From: an uncultured Anaerolineae bacterium
Lineage (GTDB): Bacteria; Chloroflexota; Anaerolineae; Anaerolineales; Villigracilaceae
Direction of reading: 5' to 3'
Length of the DNA: 36,959 nucleotides
Assembly (NCBI GenBank): GCA_903910795.1
Contig: CAIWAX010000139.1
Coordinates: 1 to 36,959 of the forward strand
A program made the position numbers and the translations under genes. The notes under the pieces were generated by a model. The model saw nothing but the letters and a program-made list of their open reading frames with translations. It was not told the origin of the DNA and did not search any database. Below, piece after piece: positions 2,931 to 29,793 of this stretch (position 1 is its first letter; the number at the start of each line of letters is the position of its first letter).

Positions 2931-3056
2931 CGAAGTGTATCCTGTGGATAACGAAGTGTATCCTGTGGATAACGAAGTGTATCCTGTGGATAGCGAAGTG
3001 TATCCTGTGGATAGCGAAGTGTATCCCGTGGATAGCGAAGCGTATCCTACGGATTG
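2931..3056 (+). repeat. Six 21-bp tandem repeats with DnaA-box-like 9-mers
   Basis: Six direct units of exactly 21 bp start at 2931, 2952, 2973, 2994, 3015 and 3036. The unit is CGAAGTGTAT followed by CCTGTGGATAA. Units 1 and 2 hold TGTGGATAA, the complement of the consensus DnaA box TTATCCACA (2943-2951, 2964-2972). Units 3 and 4 have TGTGGATAG, unit 5 CGTGGATAG, and unit 6 is degenerate. The array fills the gap between the GMC oxidoreductase stop (inside unit 6) and the SIMPL gene start. The 21-bp period is two helical turns, so all boxes face one side of the DNA. Confidence 0.93.
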
Positions 3057-10310: not shown

Positions 10311-11642
10311 TCACTTGGCGCCCAGCGGGGCGTAAAACTGCACCAGCCAGTTGCCGGAGCCTTTGTCCAGCACCTCCGTCGGCAGGGTGACGATATGGAT
10401 CCAGGTCTGGCCGGGTTTGAGCGTGAAGGGGTTGCCATCTGCGGTCTCGAAGCGCAGCGGGCGCCGCAGCAGGGTGGACTTTTCGTAGTCTCCTCCTATG
10501 GTTGACCAGAAGGCATCGAATTTTTGCCCATCGCGGAAGATGATGGCTTTGCCGCGCTCACCCTGGGCCATTTGAATATCAATAATATAGGGGCTGATGA
10601 CCGTGTGCCTGGTGTAAAGCACCACCACGTTTGAGAATGAAAGCTGACTGCCGTTCAGGCGGTCGGTGGCGGGGGTGAATTTACCGTCTCCGTTGGCGAA
10701 GTCGTCGAATTTCAGGTATTGGCCGGTGTCCGGGTTGTACTGCCATTGGCCCTGGTTGAACAGGCTGTAATAGGTGTGGATCAGGGCGGCTGCCAGACCC
10801 TGGCTTTGCGGCGCACTGGTGAACAGGTTGCCGCTGTAATTGAACTGGTCGTAGCTGCGCTGATTGGTTTGGGCGATTTTCTGCAGGCGGGTGGCATCCA
10901 GCATGGCGCTGTTGATGTTGGTCGTGTCGGCACCAAAAACGAAGGCGCAGCCTTTCAGCCTGTCGCGAATTTCCACGGTGGCTCCGGCGTAGACCAGGCA
11001 GGAGTTCTGGAAAAAATCGCGGATGTAAACATAGGGCAGACGCCCGGAGCGCACCGGCCCGACCTGGACGGCTGTGGCGGGCACCGGCGTGGCGGACGGG
11101 TCGGTTGAGATAGGGATTTTTGGATAGCTGCCATAAAACGCCGCCAGGTAGCGCGTCATGCCTTCGGCGATGTAAAGCTCAAAGACCCAGGGCGCAAACG
11201 ACAACCCGGCCTGCGGCCGCGCCGATGGCGGAAAGTTGGTGATCGAGATCAGCACGGCCGGCAGCTTGAGCAGCGCGGGATCGGCAACCGGCAGCCCGGT
11301 CAACGGGTTATACCCGTCAGGGATGTTTTTTGAATCCGGCCCAATGGCGGCCGGGGCGGAACTGGTTGGCACCGCGCTGGCGGCTGGCACATCCGTGGGC
11401 GCCGCCACGGATGTTGCGCTCGGGCCGGTAGAGGCTGGTTGGCTGGGGATGGGCGCGTTTATAGAAGTGGCCGGCAATTCCTGTGGTTTGGCGGAACTGA
11501 GCGCCGCGGCCGCCGCGCCTTTTTCAATACCGAACGATTTGCTTGGCAAATCGTGGGTATTTTCCGCCGGGCTGGCAGTGTTGCAGGCGCTCAGAGAGAG
11601 CGCCAAAATAAGCAGCAGGTAAAATATTTTTTGCAGTTTCAT
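10311..11642 (-). CDS. DUF3048 lipoprotein, paralogue without insert
   Basis: 443 aa. A signal peptide (FYLLLILALSLSAC) carries the lipobox LSAC, followed by a linker of about 85 residues rich in Ala, Ser, Pro and Thr. The DUF3048 halves are NPLTGLPVADPALLKLPAVL with RPQAGLSFAPWVFELYIAEG, and VGPVRSGRLPYVYIRDFF with LKGCAFVFGAD. The C-terminal part (FRDGQKFDAFWSTIGGDY, PFTLKPGQTWIHIV) matches the other paralogue. A hairpin-type family A repeat (11525-11565) lies in the linker and encodes about 13 residues (LPSKSFGIEKG region) without shifting the frame. It follows the HIT gene by 34 bp and ends at a strong terminator. Confidence 0.9.
   Translation of the reverse strand: MKLQKIFYLLLILALSLSACNTASPAENTHDLPSKSFGIEKGAAAAALSSAKPQELPATSINAPIPSQPASTGPSATSVAAPTDVPAASAVPTSSAPAAIGPDSKNIPDGYNPLTGLPVADPALLKLPAVLISITNFPPSARPQAGLSFAPWVFELYIAEGMTRYLAAFYGSYPKIPISTDPSATPVPATAVQVGPVRSGRLPYVYIRDFFQNSCLVYAGATVEIRDRLKGCAFVFGADTTNINSAMLDATRLQKIAQTNQRSYDQFNYSGNLFTSAPQSQGLAAALIHTYYSLFNQGQWQYNPDTGQYLKFDDFANGDGKFTPATDRLNGSQLSFSNVVVLYTRHTVISPYIIDIQMAQGERGKAIIFRDGQKFDAFWSTIGGDYEKSTLLRRPLRFETADGNPFTLKPGQTWIHIVTLPTEVLDKGSGNWLVQFYAPLGAK
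11525..11565 (+). repeat. Family A repeat, hairpin form, inside a lipoprotein linker
   Basis: Reads CAATACCGAAC, then the hairpin arms GATTTGC and GCAAATC around TTG, then GTGGGTATTTTCC. Apart from a few bases it matches the copy at 17445-17486. It lies in frame within the low-complexity linker of the DUF3048 lipoprotein. Confidence 0.88.
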
Positions 11643-17412: not shown

Positions 17413-18672
17413 ATGTGCTTATCCCCGCGCTTGCGTGTTGATTCCATATCGAACGATTTGCTTGGCAAATCGTGGGTACTTTCCATGAACCGGATCAGCC
17501 AGTCATTCTCTTACCGGATCGGGCTGCTGGTCTGCGTATTAAGCCTGGCTTTGCAATCCTGCGCGGCTGCGCAGGCGGTTCTGACACCCCCCGTGGAAAC
17601 CCGGCCTACGGGCAGCCCCTCTGCGCCCGCCGTCCCAACCCTGCTGCCGCCCGGCTCACAGATCAGCCTTCCCATGAAAACGGGCTATGGTATGCGCGGC
17701 TCGTTTTACGAGCTGTACTTCACCGATCCATTCAACCCGGCTTCTGCCAATGAGGAAGGCGGCCCGGATGCGCCGCTGGCCGCGGCCATCAACGCCGCCC
17801 GGGTCTCGGTGGATGTGGCGGCCTATAGCCTCAGCCTGTATTCCGTTGAGCAGGCGCTGATCGGAGCCAATAAACGCGGTGTGCGGGTACGCATGGTCAT
17901 GGAAAGCGATAATATGAGCGACCCGGTGCCCCAGGAGCTCAAGAATGCCGGCATCCCGATCGTGGGGGATAACCGGCCAGGCCTGATGCACAATAAATTC
18001 ATGGTGATCGATCATTTCGAGGTTTGGACAGGTTCAATGAACTTTACGACTTCCGGCACCTATCAGGATAACAATAACCTGATTCGCATCCGTTCCAGCA
18101 AGGTAGCCGTAGACTACACGACAGAATTTGAAGAAATGTTTGTGGATAACTTCTTTGGCCCGGACGCGATCGCGAACACACCCTACCCGCAGGTGACGGT
18201 CGATCAGGTGCCGATGGAAGTGTATTTTTCCCCCGATGATCATGTCGCCCGGCGTATCGCGGCCTTGCTGCGAGCGGCCAACTCCAGTATTTACTTCCTG
18301 GCTTATTCTTTCACGGCCAACGATTTTGGCGACATTATCCGCCAAAAGGCGCAGGATGGGCTAAAGGTGGCGGGCGTGATGGACGAATCCCAGATCAGGC
18401 TGGATACCGGCACCGAATATGATGCCTTTGCCAAGGATGCGCTGCCGGTTTATCCGGATGGCAACGCCGGGTTGATGCACCACAAGGTGATCATCATCGA
18501 CAATGAAATTGTCATCACCGGCTCGTATAACTTTACGGCCAGCGCCGAGCGCACCAACGATGAGAATGTCGTGATTTTCTTCGATAAACAGCTTGCTGCC
18601 GATTATATGGCCGAGTTTCAGCGCGTGTTTGACGAGGCGCCCAAGATCAAGGGCGGCACCTCGATGCGCTAG
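17413..18672 (+). CDS. Phospholipase D-family lipoprotein with two HKD motifs
   Basis: 419 aa from the ATG at 17413, which has AGAGG 7 nt upstream. A start at 17485 (395 aa) would give a more normal signal peptide. The lipobox is LALQSC, followed by a Pro-rich linker. Two PLD domains follow: the first has MHNKFMVIDHFEVWTGSMNF, the second MHHKVIIIDNEIVITGSYNF, both complete HxKxxxxD motifs. Such proteins hydrolyse phosphodiesters of lipids or DNA (Nuc-like); the lipoprotein signal puts it on the cell surface. A family A repeat (17445-17486) lies between the two candidate starts and ends on the second ATG, so it either encodes part of the N-terminus or forms the 5' leader. Confidence 0.9.
   Translation: MCLSPRLRVDSISNDLLGKSWVLSMNRISQSFSYRIGLLVCVLSLALQSCAAAQAVLTPPVETRPTGSPSAPAVPTLLPPGSQISLPMKTGYGMRGSFYELYFTDPFNPASANEEGGPDAPLAAAINAARVSVDVAAYSLSLYSVEQALIGANKRGVRVRMVMESDNMSDPVPQELKNAGIPIVGDNRPGLMHNKFMVIDHFEVWTGSMNFTTSGTYQDNNNLIRIRSSKVAVDYTTEFEEMFVDNFFGPDAIANTPYPQVTVDQVPMEVYFSPDDHVARRIAALLRAANSSIYFLAYSFTANDFGDIIRQKAQDGLKVAGVMDESQIRLDTGTEYDAFAKDALPVYPDGNAGLMHHKVIIIDNEIVITGSYNFTASAERTNDENVVIFFDKQLAADYMAEFQRVFDEAPKIKGGTSMR
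17445..17486 (+). repeat. Family A repeat, hairpin form, at the PLD gene start
   Basis: Reads CATATCGAAC, hairpin arms GATTTGC and GCAAATC around TTG, then GTGGGTACTTTCCAT. The final AT begins the internal ATG at 17485. In the frame from 17413 it encodes NDLLGKSWVLS, nearly the same peptide (NDSLNKSWALS) that another copy encodes in the DUF5667 protein at 19884-20855. Confidence 0.92.
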
Positions 18673-19296: not shown

Positions 19297-19887
19297 ATGG
19301 TATACTCAACCAATCCCAAAACACAACAGGGTTTTTTGAATTCCATCATGTCTTTGCCCGCCAAAAACGAACTTGAAGGCTTGCAGCAGCTTGACCCTCA
19401 GGCGATCAGCGCAGTATATGACCGATACTTTCCGGATGTTTACCGGTTTGTACGTTACCGCTTGAACGATGAACACCTGGCGGAAGATATCGCCAGCGAC
19501 GCTTTTGTGCGGCTGCTGGAGGCTGTCAGATCGGGGCGCGGGCCTCAAACCAATATCAAGGCCTGGCTGCTGGCGACCGCCTCACATATCGTGGTAGATC
19601 ATCAGCGCAAAGCCTACCGCCGCCCGGAAAACGAATTACCCGAGAGCGCCCCGGATGCCGCGCCTGGCCCCGTCACACAACAGGAGCAGCGTGAACGCGA
19701 GCGCAGTTTGAAAAAGGCGCTGGCCGCTCTGACCGAAGAACAACAAAGTGTGATCGCGATGCGTTTCAACCTGGGTTATTCGCTGGAAGAAACCGCCGCT
19801 CTTTTAAAGAAAAATGTAAACTCAGTCAAACAACTTCAATTCCGAGCTCTCGCCGCGCTTAAACGCGCACTGGGTGAGATATTATGA
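19297..19887 (+). CDS. ECF RNA polymerase sigma factor
   Basis: 196 aa from the ATG at 19297 (AGGA 5 nt upstream). A TTG at 19246 would add 17 residues and an ATG at 19348 would remove 17. Region 2 is LDPQAISAVYDRYFPDVYRF with HLAEDIASDAFVRLLEAV and IKAWLLATASHIVVDHQRK. A charged linker follows, then region 4 is ALAALTEEQQSVIAMRFNLG with YSLEETAALLKKNVNSVKQL. Such factors direct polymerase to a small regulon and are held by a partner protein. The stop overlaps the start of the next gene (ATGA), so that product is the expected anti-sigma factor. Confidence 0.92.
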   Translation: MVYSTNPKTQQGFLNSIMSLPAKNELEGLQQLDPQAISAVYDRYFPDVYRFVRYRLNDEHLAEDIASDAFVRLLEAVRSGRGPQTNIKAWLLATASHIVVDHQRKAYRRPENELPESAPDAAPGPVTQQEQRERERSLKKALAALTEEQQSVIAMRFNLGYSLEETAALLKKNVNSVKQLQFRALAALKRALGEIL

Positions 19888-20855
19888 CCAGCCAAAAACT
19901 TTACGATGCCCTTGAAATTTGCCTGCAGGCCCTCGACCATGGAGCGGATATGGAATCGTGCCTGGCGCTTTTCCCCCCACTGGCTGATGATCTGCGCCCC
20001 TTGCTGACGACCGCGCTCCAGGCCCGTACTGATGGGGTTCTGGAAGTGCCCGCGGGTGCAGCGCGGCGCGGCAAGGCGCGGGTTTTGCAGGCCGCGGCCG
20101 AAATGCGCGAACAGGCGGCTTCGAAACCGGCTCGCCCGGCCCTGCGCCGCTGGCAAAACGGCTGGCCAGGCACGCGCATTTTCCGGCTGGTAATCACCAC
20201 GGTTGCCATGCTGGCCTTCCTGCTGACGGGCGGCACCGGGCTGGTCGGCGCCGCCAGCAGTTCGCTGCCTGGCGACCATCTCTATCCGGTCAAACGCAGT
20301 TGGGAGGATGTGCGCCTGTTTTTGGTATTCAATCCCAATGAACGGATGCAGCTTGAACAGGAGTTTGAGCAGGAACGCTTTCAGGAAATTGAAGAGTTGT
20401 ACACTGCCAAACGGGTTGCGAAAGTGAACTTTCAGGGTCAGTTACAGACCCGCAGCAACGGTGATTGGGTAGTTGGTGGATTGGATGTGAGCGTCAATGG
20501 AAATGCCACCCCACAGGCTGGTATCGTCTCCGGCGTAACAGTGCAGGTGATCGGCGAAACAGATAACGGCGTGATCAAGGCTGAACAAATCATCCTGATA
20601 ATCACCCCGACTGTGATCCCCGAGAACAGCCCAACTATTTCACCCAGTTCCACGCTGGCGCCAACCATTCAACCAACTGCCGCCCCAACGGAAATGGAAA
20701 ACACGCCCCAGCCCACCAAGAACACTGAATTGCCGGCCTTAACGAACGATTCGCTAAACAAATCGTGGGCACTTTCCAGCGACCCCGCCCAAACACGCCG
20801 CCCGGCGGCTGCCCGCACTTCCGAGAACGGTGGGGATACGCAGGACGGCGAGTAA
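19884..20855 (+). CDS. DUF5667-type membrane protein, putative anti-sigma factor
   Basis: 323 aa, starting at the ATGA overlap with the ECF gene. The N-terminal 85 residues are cytoplasmic (LYDALEICLQALDHGADMES, LFPPLADDLRPLL). One membrane helix follows (about residues 92-115, LVITTVAMLAFLLTGGTGLV). Outside it comes the DUF5667 segment SSLPGDHLYPVKRSWEDVRL with FEQERFQEIEELY, and then a small beta domain like DUF5666 (VNFQGQLQTRSNGDWVVGG). The tail is Thr/Pro-rich. Operon position and topology suggest an anti-sigma factor, although no zinc-type ASD motif is seen. A family A repeat (20741-20779) encodes NDSLNKSWALSS in the tail. Confidence 0.82.
   Translation: MTSQKLYDALEICLQALDHGADMESCLALFPPLADDLRPLLTTALQARTDGVLEVPAGAARRGKARVLQAAAEMREQAASKPARPALRRWQNGWPGTRIFRLVITTVAMLAFLLTGGTGLVGAASSSLPGDHLYPVKRSWEDVRLFLVFNPNERMQLEQEFEQERFQEIEELYTAKRVAKVNFQGQLQTRSNGDWVVGGLDVSVNGNATPQAGIVSGVTVQVIGETDNGVIKAEQIILIITPTVIPENSPTISPSSTLAPTIQPTAAPTEMENTPQPTKNTELPALTNDSLNKSWALSSDPAQTRRPAAARTSENGGDTQDGE
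20741..20779 (+). repeat. Family A repeat, diverged, in the DUF5667 gene tail
   Basis: Reads AACGAAC, then GATTCGCTAAACAAATC, then GTGGGCACTTTCCA. The hairpin arms have decayed (GATTCGC against AAATC) but the reading frame is kept, giving NDSLNKSWALSS. Confidence 0.78.
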
Positions 20856-26156: not shown

Positions 26157-26753
26157 TCAGTCCCCGCTGCCGGTGCTTTCAGCGCCCAGGCGCGAGATGA
26201 CTTCTTCGGCGGTCATCAGCATGCCGTAGGATTTGAAGGCTGCCAGGAAGGCCGCGTGGACATGGGCGGCTGGAACGCTGACATCGCCGTAGCTCAGCGC
26301 GCGGGTGGCGCAGGCATCCGGAACGATGATGACCTGGAAGCCCAGGTCGGCGGCAGCGCGCACGGTGGCATCCACGCACATGTGGGTCATCATGCCGCAG
26401 ATCACCACGCGCTCGGTTTTCCAGGCCTTGAGCTGCTCCAGTAAATCCGTCTCACGGAAGCTGTTGGGGAACTGCTTGTGAACGATTGGCTCGCCTTCAA
26501 AGTGCGTCACCAGGTCGTGGATGCGGATGCCATCCGTGCCAGGGATGAAGAAGGTGGCGCCAGGTTTGCGCGATTCGTGCTGGATGTGGATGTGCTGCCC
26601 GCCGTGTTCGCGGAAGCACTGCAGCAGCGCGCCGGCTTTTTTCCCAGCCTCGAGTGCGCCTTCCAGTTCCATCTTCCCGCCGGGGAAGTAATCGTTTTGA
26701 ATGTCGATGATCAGTAAAGCTGTGTTCATATCGAACTTATGGGTACTTTCCAT
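26157..26753 (-). CDS. Cysteine hydrolase (isochorismatase-like)
   Basis: 198 aa. The catalytic triad is D17 in LLIIDIQNDYF, K93 in VHKQFPNSF and C126 in GMMTHMCVDATVRAAAD, with a cis-peptide region after it. The fold covers isochorismatases, nicotinamidases and N-carbamoyl hydrolases; the presence of the cysteine points to an amidase type, but the substrate is unknown. The first eight residues, MESTHKFD, come from a family A repeat; the family core would start at M9 (26729). A GGGAG 5 nt before the ATG at 26753 supports the longer, repeat-extended form, and nothing similar precedes M9. It is coupled to the M48 gene downstream. Confidence 0.92.
   Translation of the reverse strand: MESTHKFDMNTALLIIDIQNDYFPGGKMELEGALEAGKKAGALLQCFREHGGQHIHIQHESRKPGATFFIPGTDGIRIHDLVTHFEGEPIVHKQFPNSFRETDLLEQLKAWKTERVVICGMMTHMCVDATVRAAADLGFQVIIVPDACATRALSYGDVSVPAAHVHAAFLAAFKSYGMLMTAEEVISRLGAESTGSGD
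26727..26753 (+). repeat. Family A repeat, core form, encoding the hydrolase N-terminus
   Basis: Reads CATATCGAACTTAT then GGGTACTTTCCAT. On the minus strand it encodes MESTHKFD and then the next Met. The start codon of the hydrolase is the last three bases of the element. Confidence 0.93.
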
Positions 26754-26778
26754 GGAGACTCCCTAAAATGGTTGGAAT

Positions 26779-26860
26779 TGGCACTTTCCATATTGAACTT
26801 ATGGGTATTTTCCATATTGAACTTATGGGTACTTTCCATATTGAACTTATGGGTACTTTC
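26779..26860 (+). repeat. Family A core repeated in tandem, 24-bp period
   Basis: After a partial copy (GGCACTTTCC, 26779-26788), three full units start at 26789, 26813 and 26837, each CATATTGAACTT plus ATGGGTACTTTC (one has ATTTTC). The period is 24 bp, or eight codons; on the minus strand it would encode MESTHKFN (or MENTHKFN) over and over. The array runs into the long composite element at 26861. Confidence 0.95.
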
Positions 26861-27003
26861 CATATTGAACTTACTTTTGCCCTGCGATTTGCTTACACAC
26901 AGTGCTGTGCATCGTCCCGACACGATTTGCTTGGCAAATCGCACTTGCATTCCGGTGCAAGTATGCCCTGGCAGAGCCGGGAGCAAATCGTGGTTACTGT
27001 CCA
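26861..27003 (+). repeat. Family A long composite element with nested hairpins
   Basis: It opens with the core left end CATATTGAACTTAC and closes with GTGGTTACTGTCCAT. Between them lie several palindromic pieces: GCGATTTGC, CACAGTGCTGTG, the hairpin GATTTGC/GCAAATC, CACTTGCATTCCGGTGCAAG and CCCTGGCAGAGCCGGG, then GCAAATCGTGG. The copy at 28110-28248 shares this order. The right end overlaps the stop codon of the DUF971 gene at 26994. Confidence 0.88.
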
Positions 27004-27377
27004 TTTTGCAACGCGCCCCGCCGGCATTCAGGACACGGGCACAGCGCGCGCAAATAATGCCAGTTATAAATCCCGTAATCATGACCGTCCTCCCAGACAA
27101 TGGTCAGAGCGTATGAGCCGGTAGGCTTAACGGTGGAAATCCGGGTGGCTGGTGCATCGATGAACTCGAAGTGGAACACATCGGCATCCGGTTCAGCCTT
27201 CATGTTTTCATGCCCTCCGCGGCATTGAGCGCAGGGACAGGCGGCCCGCAGCAGGGAAAATGGGTAAAGACTGGTGTGACCATCCGCCCAGGTGATCGTC
27301 ATTTCCAGCGCGGGGCGGTTGGCGGTAATACCGTTCGGTTTCTCAGAAAGCATATTGAACTTATGGGTACTGTCCAT
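26994..27377 (-). CDS. DUF971 domain protein
   Basis: 127 aa. Both halves of the DUF971 (gamma-butyrobetaine hydroxylase N-terminal-like) pattern are present: TITWADGHTSLYPFSLLRAA with CPCAQCRGG, and TIVWEDGHDYGIYNWHYLRA with CPCPECRRG. The cysteine clusters suggest metal binding; in bacteria stand-alone DUF971 proteins are often tied to Fe-S cluster handling, but nothing here shows that. AAGGAA lies 7 nt before the ATG at 27377. The first eight residues, MDSTHKFN, come from a family A repeat (27351-27377). The stop codon TAA and the last residues (LQNGQ) lie in another copy, so both gene ends are repeat-derived. Confidence 0.87.
   Translation of the reverse strand: MDSTHKFNMLSEKPNGITANRPALEMTITWADGHTSLYPFSLLRAACPCAQCRGGHENMKAEPDADVFHFEFIDAPATRISTVKPTGSYALTIVWEDGHDYGIYNWHYLRALCPCPECRRGALQNGQ
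27351..27377 (+). repeat. Family A repeat, core form, encoding the DUF971 N-terminus
   Basis: Reads CATATTGAACTTAT then GGGTACTGTCCAT. The change of TTTCC to TGTCC turns MEST into MDST on the minus strand. The element ends exactly on the start codon of the DUF971 gene. Confidence 0.93.
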
Positions 27378-27387
27378 GGTATTTCCT

Positions 27388-27455
27388 TATTGAACTTATA
27401 TCGAACTTACATATGCCCTGCGGGTGGGTATTTTCCATGCCGAACTTATGGGTTT
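27388..27455 (+). repeat. Family A repeat cluster at the SH3 gene 3' end
   Basis: Three partial or full pieces follow each other: TTATTGAACTTA, TATCGAACTTACATATGCCCTGC with GGGTGGGTATTTTCCATG (degenerate), and CCGAACTTATGGGTTT. The last one contains the TAA stop (27446-27448 on the minus strand) of the SH3 protein gene. Confidence 0.82.
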
Positions 27456-27931: not shown

Positions 27932-28335
27932 ATTTATCGCTGCTTTTTTCCGGACCAGATATGGTAATCCCGATAAACCCTGTGAGTCTGCGCGGGAAGG
28001 AACGCATAAAAATTATACCCTTCCCGGTCACAAACGCGAAGCGCTGCGAGGAATATTTATGGTACTAATGGAATTTGTGGTATCACCATTTTTTTCAAAC
28101 CATCCACGAATACTGAACTTACATTTGCCCAGCGATTTGCTAACACACAGTGATGTGCATCATCCCGACACGATTTGCGATTTACTTAGCAAATCGGCAA
28201 ATCGTGTGCCCTGGCAAAGCCAGGCGCAAATCGTGGATACTTTCCATTTCATTCTCCACAACTCCCGGCGATTTCTGCATAATTTCTGCATAATTGGCGA
28301 TTATGCTTATAGCGATGAAAAATTTCGGAGGAAGT
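27932..28335. other. Divergent intergenic region between SH3 and adaptor genes
   Basis: This 404-bp gap has no gene. It holds a TATAAT on the minus strand near 28012-28017 that could serve the SH3 gene, and a small TGGTATCACCA palindrome followed by a T-run near 28069-28089. The long family A element fills 28110-28248. From 28250 to 28335 lies A/T-richer sequence with the Shine-Dalgarno GGAGG at 28327-28331 of the first adaptor gene. Confidence 0.6.
28110..28248 (+). repeat. Family A long composite element, second copy
   Basis: It shares the order of pieces with 26861-27003: ACTGAACTTACATTTGCCC, AGCGATTTGCTAACACACAG, TGATGTGCATCATCCCGACA, then GATTTGC pieces with GATTTACTTAGCAAATC, CCCTGGCAAAGCCAGG and GCAAATCGTGGATACTTTCCA. 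The middle CACTTGCATTCCGG part of the other copy is missing, and an extra GATTT/AAATC hairpin is nested instead. Confidence 0.88.
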
Positions 28336-29793
28336 ATGAACCAAGCAAGTCCCCCAAAAATCAACAGGATAATCTGGCTCATCGCCAGCCTGATCCTGCT
28401 GGCCATCATCGGGTCATATTTATGGCTGCAGAAACCCTGGAATACTGATCTTATGGGTACTTTCCACTCCGCCAACGGCGCTTATCAAACCACCGCCGCG
28501 AGTATTGGGTCACTGACAGCCAGCGTGCAGGCTACCGGCACCATCCGCGCCGCGCAATCGGCCGTGTTGGTTTGGAATTCCAGCGGACGGGTAGAGAGCG
28601 CCAGCGCCGTCATTGGAGACAAGGTTTCTGCCAACCAGACTCTGGCCGCGCTGGCGTTGGATTCGGTTCCATCCAATATCCGGCTGTCGGAAGCAAACTT
28701 ATTGACTGCCCAAAAGAACCTTGATGACCTGCTCCTATCAAATAGCGGCCAGGCGCAAGCCATGCAAAACCTGGCGAATGCGAAACAAGCAGTTATGGAT
28801 GCCCAGATCAAGCTGGATTTTTACAATTGGACCTCAGAGGGCCGCGCTCCCGGGGAATTAATCAAAGACTTCCAGGATAAGATCAAGGCAGCGCAGCTTC
28901 GATTGAAATTCCTGGAGTGGGTCAGACACCTGCGTTATAACAGAACCGGAGATGACTTGCGCCGCAAAGCAGATTTCAATCTGACCGTCCTCAGTAGCAA
29001 ATTCAACCTGGCAGATCTGATTTCCAATTACAACTGGTTTACAGGCCGGCCCAGCGATCTGTTGATGGATCAAACCAGGGCTGAATTAAACCTGGCGATT
29101 GCCAAAGAAGAGGATGCGCAGCGCGACGTGAATCGCTACACGGGCGGGAAAAACCCCGCTGATGTGGATAGCGCCCGGGCTCAACTGGCAGCCGCGCAGG
29201 CTACGCTCAATCTTGCCAAAATCATCGCGCCATTTGACGGAACCGTGACCGCGGCAAAACCCCAAACTGGTGACATGGTTTCCGCCGGTCAAACGGCCTT
29301 TCGCGTGGATGACCTCTCGCACCTGCTGGTGGATCTTCAAATTTCGGAAGTGGACATCAACAATATCGCCGCCGGCCAGCCGGTAACCATCACGCTGGAT
29401 GCCATCCCCAATAAAACCTACCAGGGCCTTGTATCAAAAGTAAACCTGTCTGCCAAAGCCGGACAGGGCGGAGTCAATTACAAGGTTAGCATAACCCTGA
29501 CAGATGCGGATGAGCTTGTGAAACCCGGTATGACCGCGGTAGTGACCATCGCGGTCAACCAGGTAACCAACACCCTGATGGTACCCAACAGCGCGGTGCG
29601 CATGCTGAACGGTCAACGCATTGTCTATGTGCTCAAGGAAAACCAGGCAGTGCCGGTCAACATCCGGCTGGGTGCCAGCGCCAACGATAATAGCCAGGTG
29701 GTCGGCGGCAATCTAAAAACCGGAGATTTGATCATCTTGAACCCACCCGCCAACACACCTGTCCCCGGCCTAACCCCCACCAGCGCGCCCTAA
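28336..29793 (+). CDS. HlyD/MacA-type adaptor protein, copy 1
   Basis: 485 aa from the ATG at 28336 (GGAGG 4-5 nt upstream). An N-terminal membrane anchor (about residues 12-32) is followed by a periplasmic-adaptor layout. The first lipoyl half is SVQATGTIRAAQSAVLVWNS with GRVESASAVIGDKVSANQTL. A long helical hairpin holds LLTAQKNLDDLLLSNSG and ANAKQAVMDAQIKLDF. The second lipoyl half is IIAPFDGTVTAAKPQTGDMV and the beta-barrel is LLVDLQISEVDINNIAAGQP. MacA-like adaptors couple an ABC transporter to the outer envelope. A family A core repeat (28441-28467) encodes TDLMGTFHS between the anchor and the first domain. Copy 2 follows 88 bp downstream. Confidence 0.9.
   Translation: MNQASPPKINRIIWLIASLILLAIIGSYLWLQKPWNTDLMGTFHSANGAYQTTAASIGSLTASVQATGTIRAAQSAVLVWNSSGRVESASAVIGDKVSANQTLAALALDSVPSNIRLSEANLLTAQKNLDDLLLSNSGQAQAMQNLANAKQAVMDAQIKLDFYNWTSEGRAPGELIKDFQDKIKAAQLRLKFLEWVRHLRYNRTGDDLRRKADFNLTVLSSKFNLADLISNYNWFTGRPSDLLMDQTRAELNLAIAKEEDAQRDVNRYTGGKNPADVDSARAQLAAAQATLNLAKIIAPFDGTVTAAKPQTGDMVSAGQTAFRVDDLSHLLVDLQISEVDINNIAAGQPVTITLDAIPNKTYQGLVSKVNLSAKAGQGGVNYKVSITLTDADELVKPGMTAVVTIAVNQVTNTLMVPNSAVRMLNGQRIVYVLKENQAVPVNIRLGASANDNSQVVGGNLKTGDLIILNPPANTPVPGLTPTSAP
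28441..28467 (+). repeat. Family A repeat, core form, inside the adaptor gene
   Basis: Reads AATACTGATCTTAT then GGGTACTTTCCAC. It is read on the plus strand in frame as NTDLMGTFHS, the opposite strand from the one used in the hydrolase and DUF971 genes. Copy 2 of the adaptor has no such insert at the equivalent place. Confidence 0.85.

Follow-up and report, generated by a model that had tools for sequence, protein, structure and literature searches.

Among the small repeats described in bacteria, the small dispersed repeats (SDRs) of cyanobacteria (Elhai et al. 2008, Genome Res 18:1484) have units of about 20 bp that are dispersed within one genome, often lie in tandem and are thought to be mobile, according to the accounts of them in PMC2884548 and PMC3116915. 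The Rickettsia palindromic elements (RPEs) are about 150 bp long, palindromic and selfish-looking, and lie in frame in unrelated protein genes, to which they add a similar peptide (PMC10969869). REP/REPIN elements, which go with RAYT transposases, are short, species-specific, non-autonomous dispersed repeats (PMC3116915). A literature search for such repeats in Chloroflexota found no paper. Here we describe a 24-bp repeat in a stretch of 36,959 nucleotides (the window) from an uncultured Anaerolineae bacterium of the Villigracilaceae, and its relations in the rest of that genome.

The features of the window are collected in Table 1. Its tandem array has a period of 24 bp with 97% matches (TRF). 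The window contains the motif CCCATAAGTTC 7 times when up to one mismatch is allowed, and dinucleotide shuffles predict 0.49; for ATGGAAAGTRCC the count is 11, and shuffles predict 0.36. The units lie head to tail, no CRISPR-type unique spacers were found between them, and on the minus strand they translate as MESTHKFN, MESTHKFD or MDSTHKFN. A preliminary description of this DNA had reported the array, the detached units at 26753 and 27377 and a Shine-Dalgarno-like sequence before each of the latter; TRF, motif counts and minus-strand ORF reading confirm the first two, and GGGAG and AAGGAA do lie directly upstream of the new ATGs. It had further held that the unit codes for an octapeptide, that each unit supplies an ATG and that the copies placed directly before genes give new start codons. 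MESTHKFN is indeed read on the minus strand, but four of the six frames of the unit are open, so that coding for an octapeptide is not peculiar to this one. The new start codons stand for the two detached units. The ATGs of the array (26863, 26839, 26815 and 26791) are out of frame with the downstream hydrolase gene (26791 - 26753 = 38), belong to another ORF, whose end is at 26726, and have no Shine-Dalgarno sequence of their own before them. The unit at 26753 is the only one in frame with the hydrolase.

Table 1. Repeat units, structured variants and associated open reading frames in the window.
Feature	Position	Strand	Basis
Isochorismatase-family hydrolase ORF with predicted 8-residue extension	26157..26753	-	PF00857, E 6.7e-36
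Single unit in hydrolase start codon, adding MESTHKFD	26729..26753	-	sequence; relatives without repeat
Shine-Dalgarno-like GGGAG before new hydrolase ATG	26759..26763	-	sequence
24-bp unit in tandem array, 3.8 copies (ATGGAAAGTACCCATAAGTTCAAT on the minus strand)	26783..26873	-	TRF; belongs to 280-copy dispersed family
Long structured variant, core about 120 nt, several hairpins	26863..27006	-	fold z-score -3.6
DUF971 (GBBH-like_N) ORF with predicted 8-residue extension	26994..27377	-	PF06155, E 6.7e-27
Single unit in DUF971/GBBH-like_N start codon, adding MDSTHKFN	27353..27377	-	relatives without repeat
Shine-Dalgarno-like AAGGAA before new DUF971 ATG	27383..27388	-	sequence
39-bp variant, core CCCGCAGGGCATATGTAA, downstream of SH3-like gene	27400..27438	-	
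Second long structured variant, same ends	28111..28248	-	
Degenerate 24-bp copy near HlyD-like gene start	28443..28467	-	
39-bp hairpin variant, in frame within gene 10311-11642	11528..11567	-	
39-bp hairpin variant, antisense, abutting ATG of + strand gene 17485-18672	17447..17486	-	
39-bp hairpin variant near 3' end of gene 19884-20855	20740..20779	-	

Comparison with relatives locates the two detached units exactly. The hydrolase ORF begins MESTHKFD-MNTALL, with the native start codon at 26729-26727 and the PF00857 domain starting at residue 11. Its relatives, with identities of up to 87%, begin MKTALL or LKTALL and have no repeat (G006, G010 and G008), and in those of the same genus the gene opens with ATGAAA (MKTALL), with a Shine-Dalgarno sequence at the normal distance. 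The GGGAG of the window matches in place the GGAG ahead of the native ATG in G006. The DUF971 ORF begins MDSTHKFN-MLSEK; five relatives (G006, G009, G010, G001 and G003) start with MLSE or MLKE without the repeat, and the same-genus genes open with ATGCTC or ATGCTT (MLSE), again with the Shine-Dalgarno sequence at its normal distance. Relative to the same genus, each of the two window genes therefore carries exactly one extra unit in its start codon: the new ATG keeps the native Shine-Dalgarno sequence at about the old spacing, and the native ATG is shifted by 24 bp. Since the native Shine-Dalgarno sequence has passed to the new ATG, the products of both genes are likely, judging from sequence, to carry eight extra N-terminal residues.

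The unit is not confined to the window. We searched the fragmented 5.0-Mb assembly of its own genome with the 21-mer ATGGAAAGTACCCATAAGTTC, allowing at most one mismatch, and found 280 matching places against 0 for the control; these are copies rather than independent insertions, and many contigs of the assembly end inside arrays. No copies were found in 60 relatives, 10 of them of the same genus, and the 24-bp repeat is thus a species-restricted dispersed micro-repeat. There were none in IMG/VR viral contigs, and the only match in the GTDB contig collection (L031, CAIULK010000088.1) lies in a MAG labelled Rhodospirillaceae. Over 5.9 kb that contig matches contig C386 of the window's own genome with 100% identity, so the two are the same DNA, wrongly binned in one of the two MAGs, and the Rhodospirillaceae were rejected as an independent host. 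In two relatives, comparable short repeats were absent from 269 kb of G006, and 165 kb of G007 held no comparable family. Contigs of G000 that were included for having no exact copies listed on them gave a count of zero, which has no bearing on clustering.

Sites were analysed in 0.91 Mb of contigs that were chosen for bearing copies and hold 212 of the 280. The core was present at 166 sites, 115 with a single unit and 51 with tandem arrays of two to six units. Alignment of 112 clean single copies gave a sharply bounded block of 25 positions, AT-GGAAAGTACCCATAAGTTCAGTA, conserved above 90% at most positions and with sharp ends (TGGAAAGTACCCA...GTTCAGTA). The flanks were random save for C at -6 (62/112), W (A/T) at 23 (102/112) and G at 25 (68/112), which gives a weak target motif, C-N3-A↓W-N-G. 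The junction between two units, C-AGT-A↓TGG, fits this motif. Left and right flanks were uncorrelated, and a general target-site duplication is therefore absent.

Direct evidence for insertion comes from a larger host repeat, TTTCACTTGGGCATTAAATCGTGAT followed by GGTTATGCCCAAACCAAGAC, which is empty in several places (L097, L034:16644, L055, L063 and others) and elsewhere filled at the boundary between the two parts. The same point is occupied by the 24-bp form (L033, L034:10960, L056, L058 and L065), the 39-bp form (L066, L103 and L059) or a form of about 60 bp (L053 and L172). Filled and empty host repeats differ by a net insertion of 24 bp without clear target duplication. A larger dispersed repeat, TTTCACTTGGGCATTAAATCGTGATGGTTATGCCCAAACCAAGACACGGGTGAGCAGTTAC (L097, L034, L103, L065 and others), is often filled by the 24-bp family. 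Within a protein, the alanyl-tRNA synthetase of this genome has an extra TELMGTSH just before CGGTH, in a loop of variable length, and the relatives in the alignment do not have it. The same gene (L072:1957-4854) has a further insertion, about 25 residues long (KNKGPVGSAGHVIASEARQHVPGG), which looks like another repeat in a coding loop.

The ends TGGAAAGTACCCA and GTTCAGTA are common to a set of variants in which the cores are exchanged. In the 24-bp unit the core is TAA; in 39-bp variants it is a CGATTTGCTNAGCAAATC hairpin or CCCACAGGGCAAATGTAA, and further forms with the same ends measure 54 bp, 63 bp and, with several hairpins, about 130-145 bp. The long variant at 26863-27006 contains blocks of 69 nt and 46 nt that are 91% and 87% identical to a second copy. 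DNA fold z-scores were -4.4 for the 39-bp hairpin, -3.6 for the long form and -1.5 for the 24-bp unit, which is close to shuffled sequence. The genome of the window has 146 places with the hairpin core, and relatives have 0-7, there without the same ends.

We consider it likely that the family is a very small dispersed DNA repeat, recently amplified in one species (represented here by one strain), with the 24-bp unit as its shortest form; that it is probably non-autonomous and mobile; and that it extends genes at their start only as a by-product. The element inserts as a net 24 bp, or 39, about 60 or about 140 bp in its variants, at many unrelated sites and in either orientation, and re-insertion at the motif-fitting junction between units would build the tandem arrays. 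With four frames of the unit open, some insertions within genes survive as eight-residue inserts, MESTHKFS or TELMGTFH. Insertion into an ATG, as the relatives show, recreates an ATG behind the native Shine-Dalgarno sequence and presumably lengthens the protein by eight residues, a change that is probably tolerated. The element would be moved in trans by an enzyme that recognizes its ends. The sampled contigs contained no autonomous parent, nor any kilobase-scale element sharing these ends, and no mobilizing enzyme was found, neither a Y1 transposase-domain protein nor a reverse transcriptase being flanked by the repeat. Reverse transcriptase matches lay at two loci. Contigs C178 and C292 of G000 carry reverse-transcriptase genes, that of C178 possibly of the diversity-generating retroelement type.

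A more specific mover, a Y1 transposase acting on a REPIN-like palindrome as in REP/RAYT or IS200-like systems, would agree with the hairpin cores (CGATTTGCTAAGCAAATCG) of the longer variants and with the single Y1_Tnp-domain protein of the genome. We nevertheless regard it as improbable: the commonest form has no palindrome and a fold score of -1.5, no tag of the GTAG/CGTC type was noted, and the Y1 domain belongs to a long fusion protein in a 3.4-kb locus without copies.

Position relative to genes, called with a home-made codon-score caller on the copy-bearing 0.91 Mb, bears on a second alternative. The preliminary description took the array for a portable translation start, and one may suppose that the repeat spreads by supplying an ATG and an N-terminal tag that lengthen or re-start downstream genes. 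The two exact start-codon insertions of the window, with the Shine-Dalgarno sequence in register, speak for this, as do the sense ATG frame that runs into coding sequence at about 20 of 194 sites (mostly at N-termini, with five inside genes) and the ATG plus non-G base that directly follows about 17 of the units listed genome-wide. However, many copies occupy intergenic DNA, the 3' ends of genes or gene interiors, and between co-oriented genes 32 are on the gene strand and 32 on the opposite one. Among 169 sites away from contig ends, start-codon insertions comprise about 6 in sense (the window hydrolase, DUF971, L064, L081 and L059; L079 uses only the second ATG) and 5 in antisense abutting the ATG. 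ATG starts make up about 6% of non-coding AT dinucleotides, so that roughly 7 start insertions are expected in about 120 non-genic sites; the share is near chance, with no sign of targeting or of the orientation needed for translation. In addition, the unit brings no Shine-Dalgarno sequence of its own, and the array of the window does not share the reading frame of the hydrolase. A portable start is therefore very unlikely. The lengthening of genes by a new start codon remains likely for the two genes of the window, whose relatives have no repeat, but is not supported as a role of the array or of the repeat family.

Twenty in-gene copies have coding signal on both sides, one five-unit array being counted on both strands. 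Eight read as MESTHKFS, 10 as TELMGTFH, one as WKVPISSV, none as LNLWVLSI and one in a normally stop-containing phase. Selection for a hydrophilic peptide was considered as the cause of this bias and set aside, since the availability of the target motif by codon phase favours the MESTHKFS and TELMGTFH frames and explains most of it. The hydrophobic LNLWVLSI frame was seen 0 times against about 4.5 expected, and its absence may reflect selection.

It is also very unlikely that the units are regulatory or structural sites (promoters, terminators, protein-binding or nucleoid sites) that were multiplied in tandem and maintained by selection. Sites outside called genes do make up two thirds or more of the total when 82-88% of candidate targets are coding, but there is no orientation bias to genes, promoter and terminator scans were at shuffle level, an Rfam scan gave no match, and the copies inside genes, their absence from all relatives and the filled and empty host repeats point to insertion.

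A small mobile repeat, the reading we favour, may have counterparts in the same genome. At 2931-3048 the window holds a 21-bp tandem array (CGAAGTGTATCCTGTGGATAR, 5.6 copies), and a related sequence, CGAAGTGTATGCTGTGCAT, is dispersed singly in the genome and looks like another micro-repeat family. A 27-bp micro-repeat, ATGGAATAATCCCGGTTCTTGATTGGG (L032:6124-6200, L043 and L090:16-120), occurs singly and in tandem with 54 matches in the sample, and has variants with the same CGATTTGCTAAGCAAATCG hairpin. The CGATTTGC hairpin core is also present in one of the 27-bp and 21-bp families, and the two suggest that several such families arose by one process. Taken further, the 24-bp unit might rank with the smallest mobile elements on record, and a dedicated enzyme that recognizes its ends would move it in trans to targets that resemble its own tandem junction; one machinery would then serve several ends. 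Since the unit is eight codons long and begins with ATG, it would amount to natural peptide tagging at start codons and within proteins. We put this forward tentatively, as a rather unlikely proposal. Repeats of 20-30 bp are too short for known transposon ends. Here the filled and empty sites, together with a target motif, cores that can be exchanged and closely related unaffected genomes, make the mechanism of their spread testable. The family also shows how a mobile repeat can lengthen proteins in frame, whether at the start codon or within an enzyme such as alanyl-tRNA synthetase, with no obvious disruption.

Compared with described systems, the family resembles REP/REPIN elements in being short, species-specific and, probably, non-autonomous and in the hairpins of its longer variants. 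Unlike them, the 24-bp unit has no palindrome (z -1.5), folding being seen instead in the 39-bp hairpin form (z -4.4), no linked RAYT was found, and the cores change while the ends stay fixed. Tandem 24-bp units whose number is likely to vary recall minisatellites (VNTRs), but most sites have a single unit, the loci are unrelated and there is a target motif. From a CRISPR array the window units differ in having no unique spacers. With RPEs the family shares in-frame insertion that adds a conserved peptide (the 20 in-gene cases, and the alanyl-tRNA synthetase insert that is absent in relatives); the commonest unit, however, is 24 bp without palindrome or significant fold, only rare long variants being structured, many copies lie between genes, and which peptide is read depends on the strand. 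Like SDRs, the unit lies at many unrelated sites of one genome, with 280 copies and none in relatives, forms tandem arrays of varying copy number (2-6 units at 51 of 166 sites), and inserts precisely, as seen at filled and empty host repeats, at start codons compared with relatives and in alanyl-tRNA synthetase. The likeness is one of description, as SDRs are reported in PMC2884548 and PMC3116915; the lineage is different and the sequence probably so, and the variants found here share ends around exchangeable hairpin cores and lie in reading frames and start codons. On these accounts, the nearest described kinds would seem to be the cyanobacterial SDRs and, for the in-frame insertions, the RPEs.
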